The position numbers and the translations under genes were made by a program. The notes under the pieces are model-generated. The model had not been told where the DNA came from, searched no databases, and worked only from the letters and a program-made list of their open reading frames with translations. Shown piece after piece: positions 2,085-10,162 of a stretch of 64,000 bases of DNA (positions are counted from its first letter, which is position 1; each line of letters begins with the position of its first letter). The stretch covers positions 310,001 to 374,000 of the forward strand of contig CADEFU010000003.1 of assembly GCA_902826695.1 (NCBI GenBank). The letters are read 5' to 3'. Origin of the DNA: an uncultured Alphaproteobacteria bacterium. Lineage in GTDB: Bacteria > Pseudomonadota > Alphaproteobacteria > Micropepsales > Micropepsaceae.

Positions 2085-2128
2085 CGAAAGGGTTGGAGCG
2101 CGGCGCGCCCGTATGGCATCCCTATAGC

Positions 2129-4057
2129 ATGACCGCCGATATCGTCGTCCAAGACCGCGAAGAGCTCATCTACCTCCTGTGCGAGGCGGCGGAGTTCGAG
2201 CATGCCGTGATGTGCACCTACCTCTACGCGATGTGGTCGCTGAAGCGGGAGGAGGCCGAGGGCGTCACGAAGGCGGAGCTCGCGGCGATCGAGCGCTGGC
2301 GCCTCTTACTCCGCCAGATCGCGCGCGAGGAGATGCTGCATCTGGCCCTCGTCAACAATATGCTGACCGCTCTGGGGTCGGCGCCGCATCTTTGGAAGCC
2401 GGAGTTCCCCGTCCGCCCCGGCCGCTTCCCGGCCGACGTGGTGATGAAGTTGATGCCGTTCTCCCCGGCCGCCCTCGACCACTTCCTCTATATCGAGCGT
2501 CCCGAAGGCGTCGCGATCCCGGACGGCGCCGGCTTCGAGCACGCGCACTACCACCGCGTCGCGCGCGCCGATCTGCTCTCGCCCGCGTCGCAGGACTACG
2601 TCAGCCAAGGCCACCTCTATCACGGCATCATCAACGGCTTTGCCCGGCTGACCGAAACCTGCGGCGGCGAGAAGCGCGTCTTCGTGGGTCATGGCGACGC
2701 GCAAGTCGGCGCCGCCGAATTCGGTCTGCCCGGCCTCTTCAAGGTCACGAACCTCGACACCGCCCGCCGCGCGATCGAAGAGATCGTCATACAAGGCGAA
2801 GGCGCACCCGCGCACAGCGAAACCTCGCACTACGCCAAGTTCGCCGCGATCAAGGCTGAGCTGGCGCACATGAAGGCCGCGCGCCCTGATTTCGAACCCG
2901 CACGCAACGTGGCGGCAAACCCGACGCTCGGCGAGCCGCACGCCGACCTCACGCCGATCGCCGACCCCACGGCGGCAAAGGTTGTCGATCTCGGCAATGC
3001 GATCTACGCCCTGATGATGCGCGCGCTGGCGCAAGTGTTTTCACCCGCGCCGCTCCCCGCCGAGCTGCGCACCGGCCTCGCCGTCGGCTCGACGGAACTG
3101 ATGTACGCTCTCCAAATGGTCGGCGAAGCGGCGACGAAATTGCCAACCGGCAGCGGCACCACGGCTGGCCTCACGTTCACGCTCCCGCGCTCCGCCGGCC
3201 AGCTCGTGCAAAGCTGCGCCAGCCAAATCTTGAGCGAGCGCACGCAGGAACTGGCCGACGCGGCGACCGCACTCGAACGCCACGCCGCGCTCGCTGGTGT
3301 CGGCGAGCGCCTCGCCAAACTCGCCAAACGCTTCGACACGCTGCACGACCGCTACGAAGAACACATCGCTCTCACGGTGGAAGCAACGGCGCGCGCCAAG
3401 CCGAAGCCCATCGTCGAAGACAAGCCCGGCGACCCGAACGTCGCCCACACGAAGGACATCACCGTCCGCTTCGACACGAAGCGCTGCATCCACTCGCGCC
3501 ACTGCGTGCTGGAGGCGCCGAAAGTGTTCCGCGCCAACACGCCGGGCACCTGGATCCACCCGGAAGCGGCCACGATGGAACACCTCGTGCGCGTCGCACA
3601 GAACTGTCCGTCGGGCGCCATCACCTACGACCGCCACGACGGCGGCCAGGCCGAGCGCGCGCCGGACGTCAACGTCGTGCGCGTCCGCGAGAACGGCCCT
3701 TACGCCGTCAACGCCGCCGTCACGATGAACGACGCAGCACTCACCCGCGCCACGCTCTGCCGCTGCGGCCAGTCGAAGAACAAACCGTTCTGCGACAACT
3801 CCCATATCGCGGCCAAGTTCGCCGCCACCGGCGAACCCGAAACGATCGCCAGCGACCCGCTCGAATTCCGCGGCGGCGCGCTCACCATCGACCCGCTGCC
3901 CGATGGCCCGCTCCAGCTCATGGGCAACGTCGAAATCTGCGCCGGCACCGGCCGCACGGTCACCCGTGCCCAAAACGCCCGCCTCTGCCGCTGCGGCGGC
4001 TCGAGCACCAAGCCGTTCTGCGACGGCACCCACGCGCGCATCGGCTTCAAAAGCTAG
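2129..4057 (+). CDS. Ferritin-like / 3-Cys ferredoxin / double CDGSH multi-domain iron protein
   Basis: A 642-residue soluble protein with four iron-related parts. Residues 1 to about 230 look like the ferritin-like domain of the VioB / iminophenyl-pyruvate dimer synthase type, with paired E-x-x-H motifs at E22/H25 and E68/H71 that could hold a di-iron or mono-iron centre. Residues about 445-505 form a divergent ferredoxin domain with C453, C459 and C493 (NCPSGAI). Two CDGSH-type domains follow, CRCGQSKNKPFCDNSH and CRCGGSSTKPFCDGTH, each able to bind a 2Fe-2S cluster through three Cys and one His. No signal peptide is seen, so it is probably cytoplasmic. I chose the ATG at 2129; an in-frame TTG at 2093 would add 12 residues but lacks a well-spaced ribosome site. 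It is divergent from the sulfide-releasing type enzyme at 1065-2084. The domains are recognisable, but the role of the combination is not known to me. Confidence 0.85.
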   Translation: MTADIVVQDREELIYLLCEAAEFEHAVMCTYLYAMWSLKREEAEGVTKAELAAIERWRLLLRQIAREEMLHLALVNNMLTALGSAPHLWKPEFPVRPGRFPADVVMKLMPFSPAALDHFLYIERPEGVAIPDGAGFEHAHYHRVARADLLSPASQDYVSQGHLYHGIINGFARLTETCGGEKRVFVGHGDAQVGAAEFGLPGLFKVTNLDTARRAIEEIVIQGEGAPAHSETSHYAKFAAIKAELAHMKAARPDFEPARNVAANPTLGEPHADLTPIADPTAAKVVDLGNAIYALMMRALAQVFSPAPLPAELRTGLAVGSTELMYALQMVGEAATKLPTGSGTTAGLTFTLPRSAGQLVQSCASQILSERTQELADAATALERHAALAGVGERLAKLAKRFDTLHDRYEEHIALTVEATARAKPKPIVEDKPGDPNVAHTKDITVRFDTKRCIHSRHCVLEAPKVFRANTPGTWIHPEAATMEHLVRVAQNCPSGAITYDRHDGGQAERAPDVNVVRVRENGPYAVNAAVTMNDAALTRATLCRCGQSKNKPFCDNSHIAAKFAATGEPETIASDPLEFRGGALTIDPLPDGPLQLMGNVEICAGTGRTVTRAQNARLCRCGGSSTKPFCDGTHARIGFKS

Positions 4058-4196: not shown

Positions 4197-4679
4197 ATGC
4201 GCTCTAACATTCTCGCCGTGCTTGCCGCGGGGCTTATCGCCGCCGGCGCCGCCTATGCCGCTTCACCGATGTCGGTCGTCACCACGATCGAAAAGGAAAT
4301 CGTCGTCAAAGACAGCAAAGGCGCGGTCAAAGTCACGCGCGTGCCGGCAGCAACCGTCGTGCCCGGCGACACCGTCGTCTACACATACCACCTGAAAAAC
4401 GCCGGCAAGGCACCCAGTGAAAACATTATCGTCGTTGCGCCGATCCCCGCGCAGCTGAAATACATCGACAAAAGCGCGCAAACCCAAACGGCGATTGTCA
4501 CGTTCTCGGTAGATGCGGGCAAATCCTTCGCCGACGCCGCCAAGCTTCAGGTGACCGGTCCCGACGGCAAGCGCCGCCAGGCGGAAGCGGGCGACTACAC
4601 CCACATCCGCTGGGTGCTGAGCGTCCCTGTCGAGGGCGGAACGACCCGCGATGTCGCCTTCCGCGCCGTCCTTAAATAG
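4197..4679 (+). CDS. Secreted DUF11-like repeat protein, small
   Basis: The start is ATG 4197, with AGGAG at 4182-4186, ten bases upstream; a TTG at 4152 is less likely. The 160-residue product has a clear signal peptide (MRSNILAVLAAGLIAAGAAYA). The mature part reads as one beta-sandwich of the DUF11 / conserved-repeat type: VVPGDTVVYTYHLKNAGKAP, then ENIIVVAPIPAQLKYID. It is predicted periplasmic or cell-surface. It is followed by a strong terminator and lies upstream of two further DUF11 genes on the same strand, which suggests a shared surface structure (inference). There is no cysteine and no anchoring motif. Confidence 0.75.
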   Translation: MRSNILAVLAAGLIAAGAAYAASPMSVVTTIEKEIVVKDSKGAVKVTRVPAATVVPGDTVVYTYHLKNAGKAPSENIIVVAPIPAQLKYIDKSAQTQTAIVTFSVDAGKSFADAAKLQVTGPDGKRRQAEAGDYTHIRWVLSVPVEGGTTRDVAFRAVLK

Positions 4680-4710
4680 CAGTCCCGGATACTCAACTCG
4701 TTTGAACCTT

Positions 4711-4741
4711 AGCGCGCCCGCAATCGTGGGCGCGCTTTTTT
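4711..4741 (+). terminator. Rho-independent terminator after the small DUF11 gene
   Basis: GCGCGCCC (4712-4719) pairs perfectly with GGGCGCGC (4728-4735) across an 8-nt loop, followed by six T residues. It lies 32 bp past the stop of the 4197-4679 gene, so the next DUF11 gene probably has its own promoter. Confidence 0.9.
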
Positions 4742-5018
4742 ACGTGTCCCCGTAACGTCGGGTTCACATACCTCGCGCGCAACGGCACCAGCGCCGGCGA
4801 CAAAACCGCCCAACGCCGCCATCGGTAAACTTGGACTAAATCAACGTCACGCCTCTCTTATCGTCCGCGCCGTGCATTAGCTTTCTGTTCACCACTGTGG
4901 ACCCGGAACTGCGCCGAATCGTGTCGTTTAATAACCGAATTTTAGTAGCACTCGTGAGATTTTTACCGTTATGGCGCGGCCTTTAAGCGTCAAAGCTCAC
5001 ACACGGGTTCAACAAACA
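4742..5018. other. Intergenic leader before the second DUF11 gene
   Basis: This stretch has no credible gene. It begins with one copy of the dispersed ACGTGTCCCC sequence (4740-4757, TTACGTGTCCCCGTAACG). It becomes AT-richer near 4925-4970, where a promoter for the downstream gene would be expected; I cannot pick a convincing -35/-10 pair. Confidence 0.5.
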
Positions 5019-6050
5019 ATGAAATCACACCACGTAAGGCTGTCGCGCTGGCTGACCGCGGCAGTCCTCGCAACCGCGGCGTTTCTGACGCCGCAGTCTG
5101 CCCAAGCTGCCGGCACAGTCGCCGGCACGACGGTAACGAACACGGCGACGGTCAACTTCGACGTCGGCGGCGTTCCGCAAACCGCCGTTCAAGGTGTCGC
5201 GACCTTCGTGGTCGACGACAAGGTCAACCTGACCGTCACGAACAACTCGGGCGCGACGGTCGTTCCCGGTTCGACGAACCAGGTTCTGGCCTTCACGCTG
5301 CAGAACACCGGCAACAAGACGCACGGCTACTCGCTTGCGGCTTCGCTTGGCGGCGGCATCACGATGAACAACGTCCGCATCTATCGCGACGTGAACGGCG
5401 ACGGCAACTTCGACGTTGGCGACACGCTCTACACGGGTGGCACGAACTCGGGCGACCTCGCCCCGGACGCGACCGCGCGTTTCTTGATCGTGGCTGACAC
5501 GCCGGGCACCGCCACGAACGGTCAGGTGTCCAACTACCGTTTGATCGCGACCACGCTGAACGCTGGCACGACGACGGTTACGGCGCATGACAACGCCATC
5601 GTCGACGACAAAGACACGCAGCAAGTCGTGTTCGCCGACACCGCGGGTCCTGCGGACGCCAACCGTGACGGTGCTCACTCGGCAACGGGCACGTACACGG
5701 TTTCGACCGCGACGCTGACCGTTGCGAAGACGTCGACGGTCATCTCCGATCCGTTCAACGGCGTGACGAACCCGAAGCGTATCCCGGGCGCGGTTGTCCG
5801 TTACTCGATCGTGGTGACGAACTCCGGTGCGGCGAACGCGACGAACGTCGTCGTGCGCGACGGCATCCCGGCGAACACCACCTATGCGGCCAGCACGATC
5901 ACGCTGAACGCAGTCGGTCAGACCGACGCAGGCGGCGACGACTCGGGTGACATGGGTGCGACGAACCCGGGCGAAGTGACCGTAGCGGTCGGCGCTCTGG
6001 CGAGCGCTGGTGGTTCCGCCACCGTCACCTTCGACGTCACCGTCAACTAA
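5019..6050 (+). CDS. Secreted DUF11 repeat protein
   Basis: The product has 343 residues from ATG 5019; an in-frame ATG at 4971 would add 16 residues ahead of the signal peptide. The signal peptide MKSHHVRLSRWLTAAVLATA is followed by LTPQSAQAA with a good cleavage site. The mature chain is Thr/Asn/Gly/Val-rich, almost without Cys, with two to three beta-sandwich modules. The last is a textbook DUF11 repeat: GAVVRYSIVVTNSGAANATN, then VVVRDGIPANTTYAAS. A segment near residues 125-150 (DVNGDGNFDVGDT) looks like a calcium-binding dockerin-like or EF-hand-like loop. It probably forms part of a surface layer or fibre. It is followed after 41 bp by the 1356-residue outer-membrane protein in the same direction. 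Confidence 0.75.
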   Translation: MKSHHVRLSRWLTAAVLATAAFLTPQSAQAAGTVAGTTVTNTATVNFDVGGVPQTAVQGVATFVVDDKVNLTVTNNSGATVVPGSTNQVLAFTLQNTGNKTHGYSLAASLGGGITMNNVRIYRDVNGDGNFDVGDTLYTGGTNSGDLAPDATARFLIVADTPGTATNGQVSNYRLIATTLNAGTTTVTAHDNAIVDDKDTQQVVFADTAGPADANRDGAHSATGTYTVSTATLTVAKTSTVISDPFNGVTNPKRIPGAVVRYSIVVTNSGAANATNVVVRDGIPANTTYAASTITLNAVGQTDAGGDDSGDMGATNPGEVTVAVGALASAGGSATVTFDVTVN

Positions 6051-6091
6051 CAGCAGTAAGCCGAAGCGCAACTGCTAAGCAGAGTAGGGCC

Positions 6092-9000
6092 GTGGGCAAA
6101 CACCTGACCTTCATCGGAATGGTGTTGCTCGCGGCCCTGTCGCTTATAGCGGCGGCTGTCGCCGCCCCGACCACGCCCCCCGGCACGGTCATCTCCAACA
6201 TCGCCCAAGTCGACTTCACGCTCGGCGGCCTCTCGTTCAGCGAGTGGTCGAACGAGGAAAACTTCGCCGTCGTGGCCGCCGGCATCGGCAGCGGCCCCAC
6301 CGATATGCGCATCACCAAGCGCGCGAGCCGCATCGTCGCCGGTGTCGGCGAAGTCGTGATGTATACGCTGCGCGTCGACAACATCGGCGCCGACGCGACG
6401 AACGTCACCGTCCAAGATCAATTGCCCGGCGAACTCCGCTTCCGCGGCACCGTGCCCGCAAGCGGCACACTCGTTGAAATCACGCCCACGACAGCAGACG
6501 GCAAGTTGCTGCTCTTCGCCATCGGCCCGCTCGCGGCGGGCGCGTCGGTCGAGTTCGCTTACTTCGCCGAAGTTGTCGCCGGCGCCGAATACGGCTTTGC
6601 GACGAACAAAGCACAAGTGTTCGACATCGTCTCCGGCCGCACCTCGAACATCGGCATCGCGACAATTCTAATCCGCCAAGATATCTTCAGCGACGTCAGC
6701 TTCGTCGCCGGCCGCGTCTACGCAGGTGGCTGCGAAGGCGAGGGTAAAGGTGTCCCCGGCGTGCGCGTGTACCTCGAAGACGGCACGCTCGCTGTAACCG
6801 ACCCGTTGGGCCGTTATCACCTCGAAGGTACGAAGCCCGGCCTTCACGTCGTCGCGATCGACAAATCGAGCCTTCCCCCGGGTCTTGAGCCCGTGCAATG
6901 CCGTACCAACACGCGCAACGGCGGCGCGGGCGACATCCAATTCGTCGACACGCAAGGCGGCGCGCTCTGGCGTGCCGACTTCGCGCTCCAAGGCACCGCG
7001 ACGCCCGTGCAGAACGTGCCGATGTCCGGCCCGACGATCGACAACGGCAACTGGAGCGAAGATCGCCTGAAGAAGTGGATCGCGACCGCGCCGCAGAAAT
7101 TCGGCTTCGTCGCGCCCGGCGAAGGCTTCTATCCGCCGTTGGGCAGCATCACGATCGTCGTCGCGCACAGCCCCGATGACAAGATAGAGCTCACGCTCGA
7201 CGGCGAGCCCGTCTCCGGATTGAACTTCGAAGGCACCGTCTTCAACGCCGACAGGTCGTGGGCGGCCTCGCGCTGGCGCGGCGTGAACATCCACCCCGGC
7301 GACAACCTGCTCATGGCGGTTGCGGTCGGCAAGTCGGGCGAGAAAGGCGAGCGGGCGGGGCGGACCGTGCACTTCTCCGCGCCACCGATCGACGCCGCGC
7401 TCGATCAATCGCGCTCCAGGCTGATCGCCGACGGCAAGACCGTTCCAATCGTCGCCATCAAGCTGACGTCGCCCGGCAATCACGCCGCACGCCCCGGCAC
7501 GTTCGTCGACGTCAACATCGAGCCGCCCTATCAGCGCCAACAAACCGTGGCAGCTGAATCGATTTCGCACATCCTGCCGTCGCGCTTCCCCGTGGGCGAA
7601 GGCGGCGTGATCCTCGTCCCGCTCGCACCGACAGTCGTCTCCGGCGAGGCGCGCATCCGGGTGAAACTCGCAAATGGCGACATGACGGTGAAGGCGTGGC
7701 TGTCCGCCGGCGCCTCCTCGACGTTCCTTGTCGGCCTCGCCGAAGGCACGTTCGGCGCGAACGCGGTCTCCGGCACGCCGGACAGCAAGGTTCCCAAGAA
7801 CGCGGCCGAAGACCTGTTCGCCGACGGCCGCATCGCCTTCTTCTTCAAGAGCATGATCTTGGGCGACTGGCTTTTGAAGGCGGGCTACGACTCCAAGCGC
7901 TCCACCAAAGAAAACGCGGGCGGCCTAGGTCGTGATATCGAACCGCGCCGCTTCTTCCCGGTCTATGGCGATAGCTCGAAGACCGAGCACGAGATGGACT
8001 CGTCCGGCCCTCTTTTCGTGCACGTCGAGCGCAAGAACTTCATGATCCGCTACGGCGACTTCGACACCGCATTGTCGACGGCCGAACTGGCGCGCTACGA
8101 GCGCCGCCTCCACGGCCTGCAGTCCAGCTTTCGGGGTGAAAACGTCGGCTACAAGGCTTTCGTCAGCGACACCGCGAACCGTTTCATCAAGGACGAGATC
8201 AAAGGCAACGGCACGTCGGGCCTCTATCGCTTGTCCACGCACCCGGTGCTGATCAACTCCGAACGTATCGCGATCGAAGAGCGCGACCGCTTCCGCAACG
8301 GCCAAGCGCTGAGCGTCCGCAATCTCGTGCGCAACATCGACTACGAAATCGACTACGAGTTCGGCACGCTGTTCTTCAAAGAGCCGGTGGCGAGCCAAAG
8401 CACGAACCTGAACCCGCTCGTGATCGTCGCCGACTACGAAACCTCCGGCGCCGGCAAGCGCGCGCTGAACTACGGCGGCCGCGTCGCCGCGTACGCCTTC
8501 CAAGGCGGCCTCGAACTCGGCGCCAGCGCCATTCACGAAGGCAATACCAGCGGCAAGGACGCGACGCTCTATGGGGTCGATGCAACGGCAAAGCTTGGTC
8601 CGGGCACGATCGTGCGCGCCGAATACGCAAGATCGCGCGACGGACCGAAGGGGCCGGGCACCGCCGATGCCTACACCGTCGAAGTCAAGCACGACACGCA
8701 GGCGTTCTCCGGACGCCTGTACGCGCGCGAGCAAGACGAGTTCTTCGGTCTGAACCAGCAGAACGCAGGTCTCTCCGGCGGCCGTGAGTACGGCGTCGAG
8801 GCGCGCGCGCGTCTTGACGACGTGGCCAAGGGTCTGGGCGTTGAGGCCAAGGCCTACCACCGCGAAAGCCCACGCATCGCCGGCGCGCGCGAGTTCGGCG
8901 AGTTCTTGTTCACCTGGACGACACCGGAAGCGGAGCTGGGCCTGGGCGCCCGGCGCGTCAAGGACAGTACCGGCGGCTCGGAGGCCGTCACGGATCAGAT

Positions 9001-10162
9001 CCTCGCCCGCGCCATCTATCACATCGACGAGCGCTTGAGCGTTCGCCTAGCTCAAGAAGTATCAATCAGCGGCCGCGACGCGAACCCGGACTACCCGACG
9101 CGCACCTTGCTGGGGCTCGACTACCGCATCACGGACGAGATCACCTTCGTCGCGACCCACGAGATCTTGGACGGCGCAAACGACAAAGGCACGATCACGC
9201 GCGCGGGTTTCGAAGGGAGCCTCTGGCAAGGCGGCCGCTTCAAGACGTCGGGCCAACGCGACCTCGACGCCATATCCGAACGCGTCTTCGCCAATGTCGG
9301 CTTGAGCCAGGATTGGCAAATCGAAGACGGTTGGTCGGTCTCCGCCAGCGTCGATCGCCAGCAGCGCGTCTATGCGACCGGCGAAGACAACGGCGGCGCC
9401 GCCGGGGCAGGGGACCGCGAAAGCTTCACCGCGATTTCGCTAGGCACGGCCGTGGAGACCAAGCTCGGCAAGATCACCGCCCGCGCCGAAGCGCGTCTCG
9501 GCACGCATGAGCGTTGGAACTTCGCGCTCGGCCACTACCTCTCGCCCTATTCGAATCTGAGCTTCGCCAACAATCTCCGCTTCCTCTACGAGAAACCGGA
9601 GGCCGGCTCCGAAATCGTGACGGCGATGATGCAGCTGGGCTTTGCCTACCGCCCGAACCGTGGGCCCCTGATCCTGAACCGCATCGACTTCGGCTATGAG
9701 TCCGACCCGCGCGCCGAGGCCTTAAGCGGCGTGTCGCGCAGCACCTGGAAGTTCGTGGACAACACGTTGATCAACTTCCAGCCGTCGAACGACTTCGAAA
9801 TGTCGGTGATGTTCGGCCTGAAATACGCCGTCGACGAGGTAATGGGCATGACCCATGAGACGTTCTCGACGATGACGGGCATGGAAGGGCGCTACGACAT
9901 CACCGAAGACATCGACATCGGCCTGCGCGGCAGTGCGCTCGTCAACTGGACGACGCAGACGATCCTCTACACCGTCGGCCCTTCGATCGGCTATTCGCTG
10001 TCCGACGCGATCTGGGTCAGCGCGGGCTACAACCTATTCGGCTACGACGAAAAAGACTTCACCGCCGCGGGCTACACGTCGTCCGGCTTCTTCGTCCAAT
10101 TCCGCGCCAGGCTGGATTCCGACGACGCCGAAAGCGCCGCGAAGTGGTTCACCGAGCAGTAG
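6092..10162 (+). CDS. Giant DUF11 / SdrD-B-like outer-membrane beta-barrel protein
   Basis: 1356 residues, GTG start. Order of parts: a signal peptide (about 1-25); an N-terminal module starting PPGTVISNIAQVDFTLGG that resembles the start of the preceding DUF11 protein; a DUF11 repeat (about 70-195); a SdrD-B / Cna-B-like module (GVPGVRVYLEDGTLAVTDPLG, near 225-260); an Ig-like region (about 345-450); then a long region with FVHVERKNFMIRYGDFDTAL and NIDYEIDYEFGTLFFKEP. That last motif resembles linker domains of large outer-membrane proteins such as SprA. From about residue 780 the chain shows alternating amphipathic strands rich in Tyr, Trp and Arg to the end, typical of a beta-barrel. I infer an outer-membrane protein with a large periplasmic or surface N-terminus acting with the two DUF11 proteins upstream. 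The specific function is unknown. Confidence 0.7.
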   Translation: MGKHLTFIGMVLLAALSLIAAAVAAPTTPPGTVISNIAQVDFTLGGLSFSEWSNEENFAVVAAGIGSGPTDMRITKRASRIVAGVGEVVMYTLRVDNIGADATNVTVQDQLPGELRFRGTVPASGTLVEITPTTADGKLLLFAIGPLAAGASVEFAYFAEVVAGAEYGFATNKAQVFDIVSGRTSNIGIATILIRQDIFSDVSFVAGRVYAGGCEGEGKGVPGVRVYLEDGTLAVTDPLGRYHLEGTKPGLHVVAIDKSSLPPGLEPVQCRTNTRNGGAGDIQFVDTQGGALWRADFALQGTATPVQNVPMSGPTIDNGNWSEDRLKKWIATAPQKFGFVAPGEGFYPPLGSITIVVAHSPDDKIELTLDGEPVSGLNFEGTVFNADRSWAASRWRGVNIHPGDNLLMAVAVGKSGEKGERAGRTVHFSAPPIDAALDQSRSRLIADGKTVPIVAIKLTSPGNHAARPGTFVDVNIEPPYQRQQTVAAESISHILPSRFPVGEGGVILVPLAPTVVSGEARIRVKLANGDMTVKAWLSAGASSTFLVGLAEGTFGANAVSGTPDSKVPKNAAEDLFADGRIAFFFKSMILGDWLLKAGYDSKRSTKENAGGLGRDIEPRRFFPVYGDSSKTEHEMDSSGPLFVHVERKNFMIRYGDFDTALSTAELARYERRLHGLQSSFRGENVGYKAFVSDTANRFIKDEIKGNGTSGLYRLSTHPVLINSERIAIEERDRFRNGQALSVRNLVRNIDYEIDYEFGTLFFKEPVASQSTNLNPLVIVADYETSGAGKRALNYGGRVAAYAFQGGLELGASAIHEGNTSGKDATLYGVDATAKLGPGTIVRAEYARSRDGPKGPGTADAYTVEVKHDTQAFSGRLYAREQDEFFGLNQQNAGLSGGREYGVEARARLDDVAKGLGVEAKAYHRESPRIAGAREFGEFLFTWTTPEAELGLGARRVKDSTGGSEAVTDQILARAIYHIDERLSVRLAQEVSISGRDANPDYPTRTLLGLDYRITDEITFVATHEILDGANDKGTITRAGFEGSLWQGGRFKTSGQRDLDAISERVFANVGLSQDWQIEDGWSVSASVDRQQRVYATGEDNGGAAGAGDRESFTAISLGTAVETKLGKITARAEARLGTHERWNFALGHYLSPYSNLSFANNLRFLYEKPEAGSEIVTAMMQLGFAYRPNRGPLILNRIDFGYESDPRAEALSGVSRSTWKFVDNTLINFQPSNDFEMSVMFGLKYAVDEVMGMTHETFSTMTGMEGRYDITEDIDIGLRGSALVNWTTQTILYTVGPSIGYSLSDAIWVSAGYNLFGYDEKDFTAAGYTSSGFFVQFRARLDSDDAESAAKWFTEQ

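Follow-up and report, generated by a model that had tools for sequence, protein, structure and literature searches.

Genes B, C and D, which lie together in a 64,000-nt stretch of contig CADEFU010000003.1 (assembly GCA_902826695.1) from an uncultured alphaproteobacterium of the Micropepsaceae, here called the window, probably encode a fibre of the form B-(C)n-D, in which the subunits would be joined by donor-strand exchange and intermolecular isopeptide bonds, and D would serve as the anchor and probable exporter. Judged from the sequences, a DUF11 domain is split between proteins, such that one protein begins with the piece that another lacks at its end, and the residues of the isopeptide bond are split like the domain, with Lys and Asp in the acceptor and Asn in the donor hairpin of the next protein.

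Gene B (4197..4679, plus strand) codes for an exported protein of 160 aa with one DUF11-type domain, gene C (5019..6050, plus strand) for an exported subunit of 343 aa and gene D (6092..10162, plus strand), which has a GTG start, for a 1356-aa protein that is the candidate anchor or translocon. The ORFs of B, C and D were confirmed, all three genes are in frame on the same strand and a signal peptide is apparent by eye at the start of each product. The three-gene DUF11 set of the original prediction is borne out, with DUF11 scores above the Pfam cut-off of 24.6 bits in B (29.6), C (29.6) and D (48.3) and matches of TIGR01451 to all three. C is made up of an orphan hairpin, a first Ig/DUF11-like domain and a C-terminal DUF11 domain without its last hairpin. 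An intrinsic terminator with an 11-bp stem and a T-rich tail, the strongest of the scan, is located after gene B (4711..4736, plus strand), as predicted. The reading of B as a separate transcript, if taken to mean an unrelated one, is not supported, since B belongs to the conserved unit, is tightly spaced with C and with gene A (a paralogue of C) in related loci, and is gained and lost with C and D. The B-C gap of a same-genus relative (L016) contains no good T-tailed terminator at the corresponding place.

Many Sphingomonadales-type genomes, and others besides, carry the three genes together with their order conserved. A search with D found one close relative among same-genus genomes, in G007 (72% identity), where all three genes occur in order. 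Two layouts are observed. In the first, represented by the window-like loci, the genes run (A)-B-C-D; B, C and D, often as A-B-C-D, were counted in approximately 20 loci with a C-D gap of 11-183 bp, using A/C and B profiles built partly from loci later counted. The B and C profiles also recognise loci outside the profile-building set, for example in Acinetobacter, cyanobacteria and Deinococcus. In the second layout, a giant DUF11 protein (~1500-4000 aa, with up to 30 DUF11-type domains) is encoded directly before a shorter barrel protein. A same-strand ORF is found just upstream of the barrel gene in 48 of 54 cases, and mostly codes for a DUF11-type protein. The barrel profile is present in 51 of 398 sampled Pseudomonadota genomes (~13%) and in 12 of 387 alphaproteobacterial genomes, and the barrel family also occurs in cyanobacteria and Deinococcota. 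A tblastn search of plasmids recovered relatives in Novosphingobium, Acinetobacter, cyanobacteria, Deinococcus, Thermus, Rhodobacterales and Burkholderiales. With relatives also in Acinetobacter, cyanobacteria and Deinococcus, the set extends beyond the alphaproteobacteria.

In both the window and G007, the B-C-D block sits between a ferritin-like/CDGSH protein gene and corA, while in the same-genus genomes G002 and G006 these flanking genes lie 109 and 2 bp apart with no B-C-D between them. The presence or absence of the block between the same two flanks indicates that B, C and D come and go together. The flanking gene in the window (2093-4057) codes for a 654-aa protein that combines a ferritin-like (VioB-type) domain, a Fer4_19 ferredoxin domain and two CDGSH fingers, and which adjoins CorA where the block is absent. 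The 109-bp gap in G002 (L147), where the window has B-C-D, is filled by a GC-rich inverted repeat.

Mature A, C and D open, right behind the signal peptide, with a hairpin that follows the pattern (I/V)xNxAxVxF...SNxVxxxV. In C this orphan hairpin occupies positions 5109..5219 (plus strand; AGTVAGTTVTNTATVNFDVGG...FVVDD) and in D positions 6179..6274 (plus strand; GTVISNIAQVDFTLGG...EWSNEENFAV). The originally noted likeness between the N-termini of C and D is real and family-wide. The hairpin is homologous to the last hairpin of the DUF11 domain. A profile of the hairpin segment, cut by alignment columns only and without the motif, was compared with the giants and placed 29 of its 40 top matches on DUF11 terminal-hairpin nodes, which hold 12.3% of the residues (p=2.5e-18). 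The same test with other A/C segments and with all of B gave no comparable terminal-hairpin signal. As the hairpin is short, single matches are low (best 19 bits), and the case for homology is carried by this enrichment in position. The terminal-hairpin profile of the giants likewise gives low scores on B, C and D, with the best match at the mature N-terminus in many C, in some D and in no B protein; the comparison in the opposite direction, given above, is the cleaner of the two.

The counterpart of this hairpin is missing at the other end of C. Its C-terminal acceptor DUF11 domain (5697..6047, plus strand) stops at strand F with TVTFDVTVN, directly followed by the stop codon, at profile node 95 of 145 with 0 residues left. 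Among C-type proteins, 39 of 50 end no more than 8 residues from strand F, and the terminal-hairpin nodes are reached by 4 of 50 C-type terminal domains versus 220 of 232 DUF11-type domains of giants (Fisher p=8.7e-37). In the giants the same hairpin follows 0-12 residues after the end of the C-like domain (TFEVTVN, then TGTATGTVISNQGSVTA), and the giant DUF11 proteins beside related barrels carry both domain halves joined in one chain. The single DUF11-type domain of B also ends at strand F without the terminal hairpin, and B has no N-terminal orphan hairpin. In 59 of 59 acceptors, the tail scored higher against DUF11 when joined to a donor hairpin of its own locus than when joined to control segments (p 4e-6 for B and 2e-12 for C), a gain inflated by the choice of donors by motif. 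A fold search with C returned generic tandem Ig matches, including fimbrial complexes, none of them specific. By its parts, C is donor and acceptor, B acceptor only and D donor only with no incomplete domain, which is the balance that a chain B-(C)n-D requires. The proposal of a surface structure whose subunit and anchor share an assembly module is supported, and the module can be specified as the orphan terminal hairpin of DUF11, its last two strands.

The DUF11 isopeptide bond joins a Lys on the first strand to an Asn on the penultimate strand, with Asp as the catalytic residue (PMC12617251); in the CLIPPER (DUF11) structure these are Lys715, Asn806 and Asp748 (PDB 9IFR; PMC12617251). In C, the corresponding codons are divided between the hairpin (Asn, 5139-5141) and the C-terminal domain (Lys, 5727-5729; Asp, 5859-5861; all plus strand), and D has its donor Asn36 (6197-6199, plus strand) in the orphan hairpin. 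In 19 of 19 A/C proteins all three residues are invariant, with Lys and Asp located in the C-terminal domain and Asn in the hairpin at the N-terminus, and they are frequent, by pattern, in the wider A/C set. Among 195 domains of the giants, Lys is found in 185, Asp in 189 and Asn in 150, with all three together in 149. The B family has lost the triad (Lys in 3/23, Asp in 3/23), and B of the window is without it. Only the internal domain of D, among the three proteins, is complete with Lys (76), Asp (109) and Asn (172) in one chain, at spacings of 33 and 96 residues versus 33 and 91 in 9IFR. The Asn or the hairpin is missing in four D relatives, and likewise in both cyanobacterial D proteins. 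The N-terminal hairpin of D lacks the Asn in loci L101, L103 and L104, where some C-D joints may be non-covalent, and keeps it in L100.

The N-terminal part of D comprises the orphan hairpin, the complete DUF11/CLIPPER domain (6302..6697, plus strand; profile nodes 4-136), an SdrD/CarboxypepD_reg-like segment with a weak profile match (6704..6991, plus strand) and an Ig-like segment (7094..7771, plus strand) recognised from the AlphaFold2 (AF2) model and from weak family matches among 25 D relatives (Invasin_D3 in 12, Big_1 in 8). The 6704..6991 region is matched by CarboxypepD_reg at E 0.013 only, and the SdrD-like match is not significant in D itself. Positions 70-267 of D are homologous (E 8e-11) to residues 431-639 of C17a, the C-terminal DUF11 and SdrD-like region of the giant at a second locus of the window genome; D thus looks like a fusion of the end of a giant with a barrel. 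This second locus (G000:C17:63629-68130; L015 8627-14427) is of the second layout, with a DUF11 protein of at least 759 aa, truncated at its start by the contig end, and a 1201-aa barrel protein that is ~30% identical to D across 313 residues.

The C-terminus of D is confidently predicted to form a giant outer-membrane barrel of ~32-38 strands, the exact number being uncertain, in agreement with the barrel originally proposed. Neither of the two original grounds for refutation, a missing C-terminal barrel or a lack of joint conservation of the three genes, applies. The AF2 model of aa 330-1356, based on an alignment of 25 sequences, has a mean pLDDT of 80.0 and a pTM of 0.70, and places 32 successive strands in aa 775-1341 after about 6 long strands. 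The barrel-forming region (7814..10114, plus strand) includes a short SprA-like stretch, DYEIDYEFGTLFF. The best Foldseek matches of the model are mostly outer-membrane barrels (SlpA, TonB receptors, SprA, LptD and FimD) at low TM-scores (0.23 or below), and the barrel core of the family lies outside all Pfam and NCBIfam models. Some relatives of the barrel carry OmpA-like, peptidoglycan-binding domains, and in Acinetobacter such a domain is encoded by a separate gene downstream, which suggests that D begins, at its N-terminus, on the side of the periplasm. No significant match, not even to 9IFR, came from sequence searches of the PDB with D, its DUF11 domain, the joined C tail and hairpin, and profiles.

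In the proposed fibre, C would be exported by Sec and its N-terminal hairpin would fill the C-terminal DUF11 domain of the preceding subunit by donor-strand exchange. As an acceptor without a donor, B could occupy one chain end only, as a tip or cap, or might shield the donor hairpin before assembly in the manner of a chaperone. D, a donor without an acceptor, would take the opposite end, where its giant barrel would anchor the fibre and probably also provide the pore for subunit passage. With Lys and Asp in the acceptor and Asn in the donor, the C-C and C-D joints would seal themselves by an intermolecular Lys-Asn isopeptide bond, while joints to B, in which these residues are lost, would be non-covalent. 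The B-C-D unit contains no chaperone gene. A bolder description, advanced here tentatively and falling a little short of probable, is that of an autocatalytic Gram-negative fibre needing neither sortase nor chaperone, composed of split CLIPPER subunits with Lys-Asn locks and a barrel with over 30 strands, which would supply the last donor hairpin and act as both exporter and anchor, for which related loci encode one giant chain and a separate barrel.

The hairpin of C could instead fold back on the C-terminal domain of the same molecule. For A and C the sequence constraints would be satisfied equally well by such a closed monomer, which would form no fibre, and AF2 models C with a pLDDT of 79.6 and with good confidence in its N-terminal strand (80-92). 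B as acceptor only and D as donor only would, however, still need partners in trans, and this reading is considered improbable. Slightly more room is left for the hairpin as a mere export signal read by the barrel of D, comparable to the TPS domain and TpsB, with B and C as independent, unpolymerised surface proteins. In A, C and D the hairpin comes directly behind the signal peptide, and the giants beside related barrels resemble exported partners, both of which favour such a signal. It accounts, however, neither for the precise end of B and C ahead of this hairpin nor for the homology between the hairpin and the piece that the domain lacks, and it leaves the split of the isopeptide residues and the presence of the signal on D itself unexplained; it is thus regarded as unlikely.

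The fibre may pass out through the barrel or may be kept in the periplasm. DUF11 repeats are also present in OmcB of Chlamydia, which is believed to act as a scaffold in the periplasm, beneath the outer membrane. A scaffold of this kind anchored by D, in place of a fibre outside the cell, would fit the OmpA-type domains of some barrel relatives and of the separate Acinetobacter gene. DUF11 proteins are, however, mostly stalks of cell-surface adhesins (PMC12617251), and a barrel of over 30 strands goes far beyond the needs of an anchor, such that a wholly periplasmic structure is about as unlikely as the export signal. The succession of N-terminal Ig-like domains and a C-terminal barrel in one chain would also suit a monolithic, autotransporter-like adhesin beside which the DUF11 genes are incidental. 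The conservation of B-C-D as a unit across phyla and its loss as a block, a barrel more than twice the size of type V barrels and the split-domain evidence all speak against this explanation, and very little probability is assigned to it. The B-(C)n-D fibre is accordingly the preferred reading.

Donor-strand exchange is itself a known principle; neither the components nor the split covalent domain nor the barrel fits any of the known systems tested. The set is not a chaperone-usher, type IX, two-partner or type V secretion system, and in its predicted working it is most like the donor-strand pili. Chaperone-usher pili (Fim/Pap/Csu) have Ig-like subunits completed by the N-terminal strand of the next subunit, as is predicted for B-C-D on strong sequence evidence, and share with it the large outer-membrane barrel encoded in the locus and the acceptor-only terminal subunit. 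In B-C-D, by contrast, the donor is a two-strand DUF11 hairpin with the isopeptide Asn and the barrel itself carries a donor. No Usher (PF00577) match is found in D, the usher gene of the window genome sitting on another contig, and no PapD-type chaperone family is present in the locus, B being a single DUF11-type domain. The type V pili of Bacteroidota are likewise donor-strand fibres of Sec-exported Ig-like subunits, assembled outside the chaperone-usher pathway. They are made from lipoprotein precursors by protease-triggered strand exchange and are not known to have a giant barrel partner. No type V pilin Pfam family is matched by B, C or D. The archaeal threads (Saci_0406) are head-to-tail donor-strand fibres for which intermolecular isopeptide bonds have been proposed (PMC9715654). 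They differ from B-C-D in their subunit family, for which there is no Pfam domain, in the absence of an outer membrane and in their bond chemistry, the bond there joining the N-terminal amino group to Asn57 two subunits away (PMC9715654). The CLIPPER fibrillar adhesins have the same domain and the same Lys-Asn-Asp isopeptide (PDB 9IFR, PMC12617251), but there the domain is complete and the bond intramolecular, whereas in B-C-D both domain and residues are split between proteins.

SprA/Sov of type IX secretion (T9SS) is, like D, a very large barrel, with weak local similarity around a DYxIDY motif. The TIGR04189 (SprA) model scores 11.8 bits on D (E 0.024) against a cut-off of 200 bits, the SprA-like stretch lies at E 0.024-0.035, and matches at E<=0.1 occur in 4 of 25 D relatives (best 1.8e-5). 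D was consequently rejected as a SprA homologue, the local matches being weak and none significant in the window protein, and a firm SprA or SdrD assignment of its segments, as originally made, is not upheld. The D barrel measures ~800 aa versus the 2319 positions of the SprA model; a comparison of its ~32-38 strands with the 36 of SprA is limited by the imprecise count and the low Foldseek TM-scores. Neither CTD-type substrates nor further T9SS components were seen, and a comparison of PF14349 with the genome gave no match, an uninformative result as the control gave none either. No TpsB-type/POTRA barrel or TPS-domain family was found in any member, and D matches no 12-strand autotransporter barrel family of type Va, its barrel being far larger. 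The fil operon of Acinetobacter was considered as a named relative and set aside, since the descriptions of its products make FilD a porin for fatty-acid transport and give FilF a length of 641 aa. An F-ENA preprint, in which DUF11 and donor strand occur in one text, concerns an unrelated mechanism.

No paper describing the B-C-D set or the barrel family was found in a search of the open-access literature. If the model is correct, these loci represent an unrecognised and widespread route by which bacteria build fibres on the outer membrane, adding to the assembly routes of Gram-negative fibres and giving a function to many unnamed DUF11 genes. The fibre would be a natural split-isopeptide polymer, an evolved counterpart of SpyTag/SpyCatcher, and may yield new orthogonal protein-ligation pairs. 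The model makes the specific prediction that an identified Lys of one protein is bonded to an identified Asn of another.

Several related loci depart from the arrangement in the window. Two or three C-type genes precede D in L100, L101, L103 and L104. On the mobilizable plasmid p4 of Acinetobacter haemolyticus (CP085288.1; L022), a B-like protein, a NEW3 protein, a C-like protein, a 2008-aa D, an OmpA-family protein and a further DUF11 protein are encoded. A single chain of 4545 aa in L060 (G228:C38), in which only two DUF11-type domains were found, has a barrel in its last ~870 aa and is a full fusion of giant and barrel. In L057, L098, L101 and L104, a response-regulator gene lies divergently upstream of A/B, with a histidine-kinase-like gene beside it in L101 and L104, and regulation of the set by this response regulator is possible.
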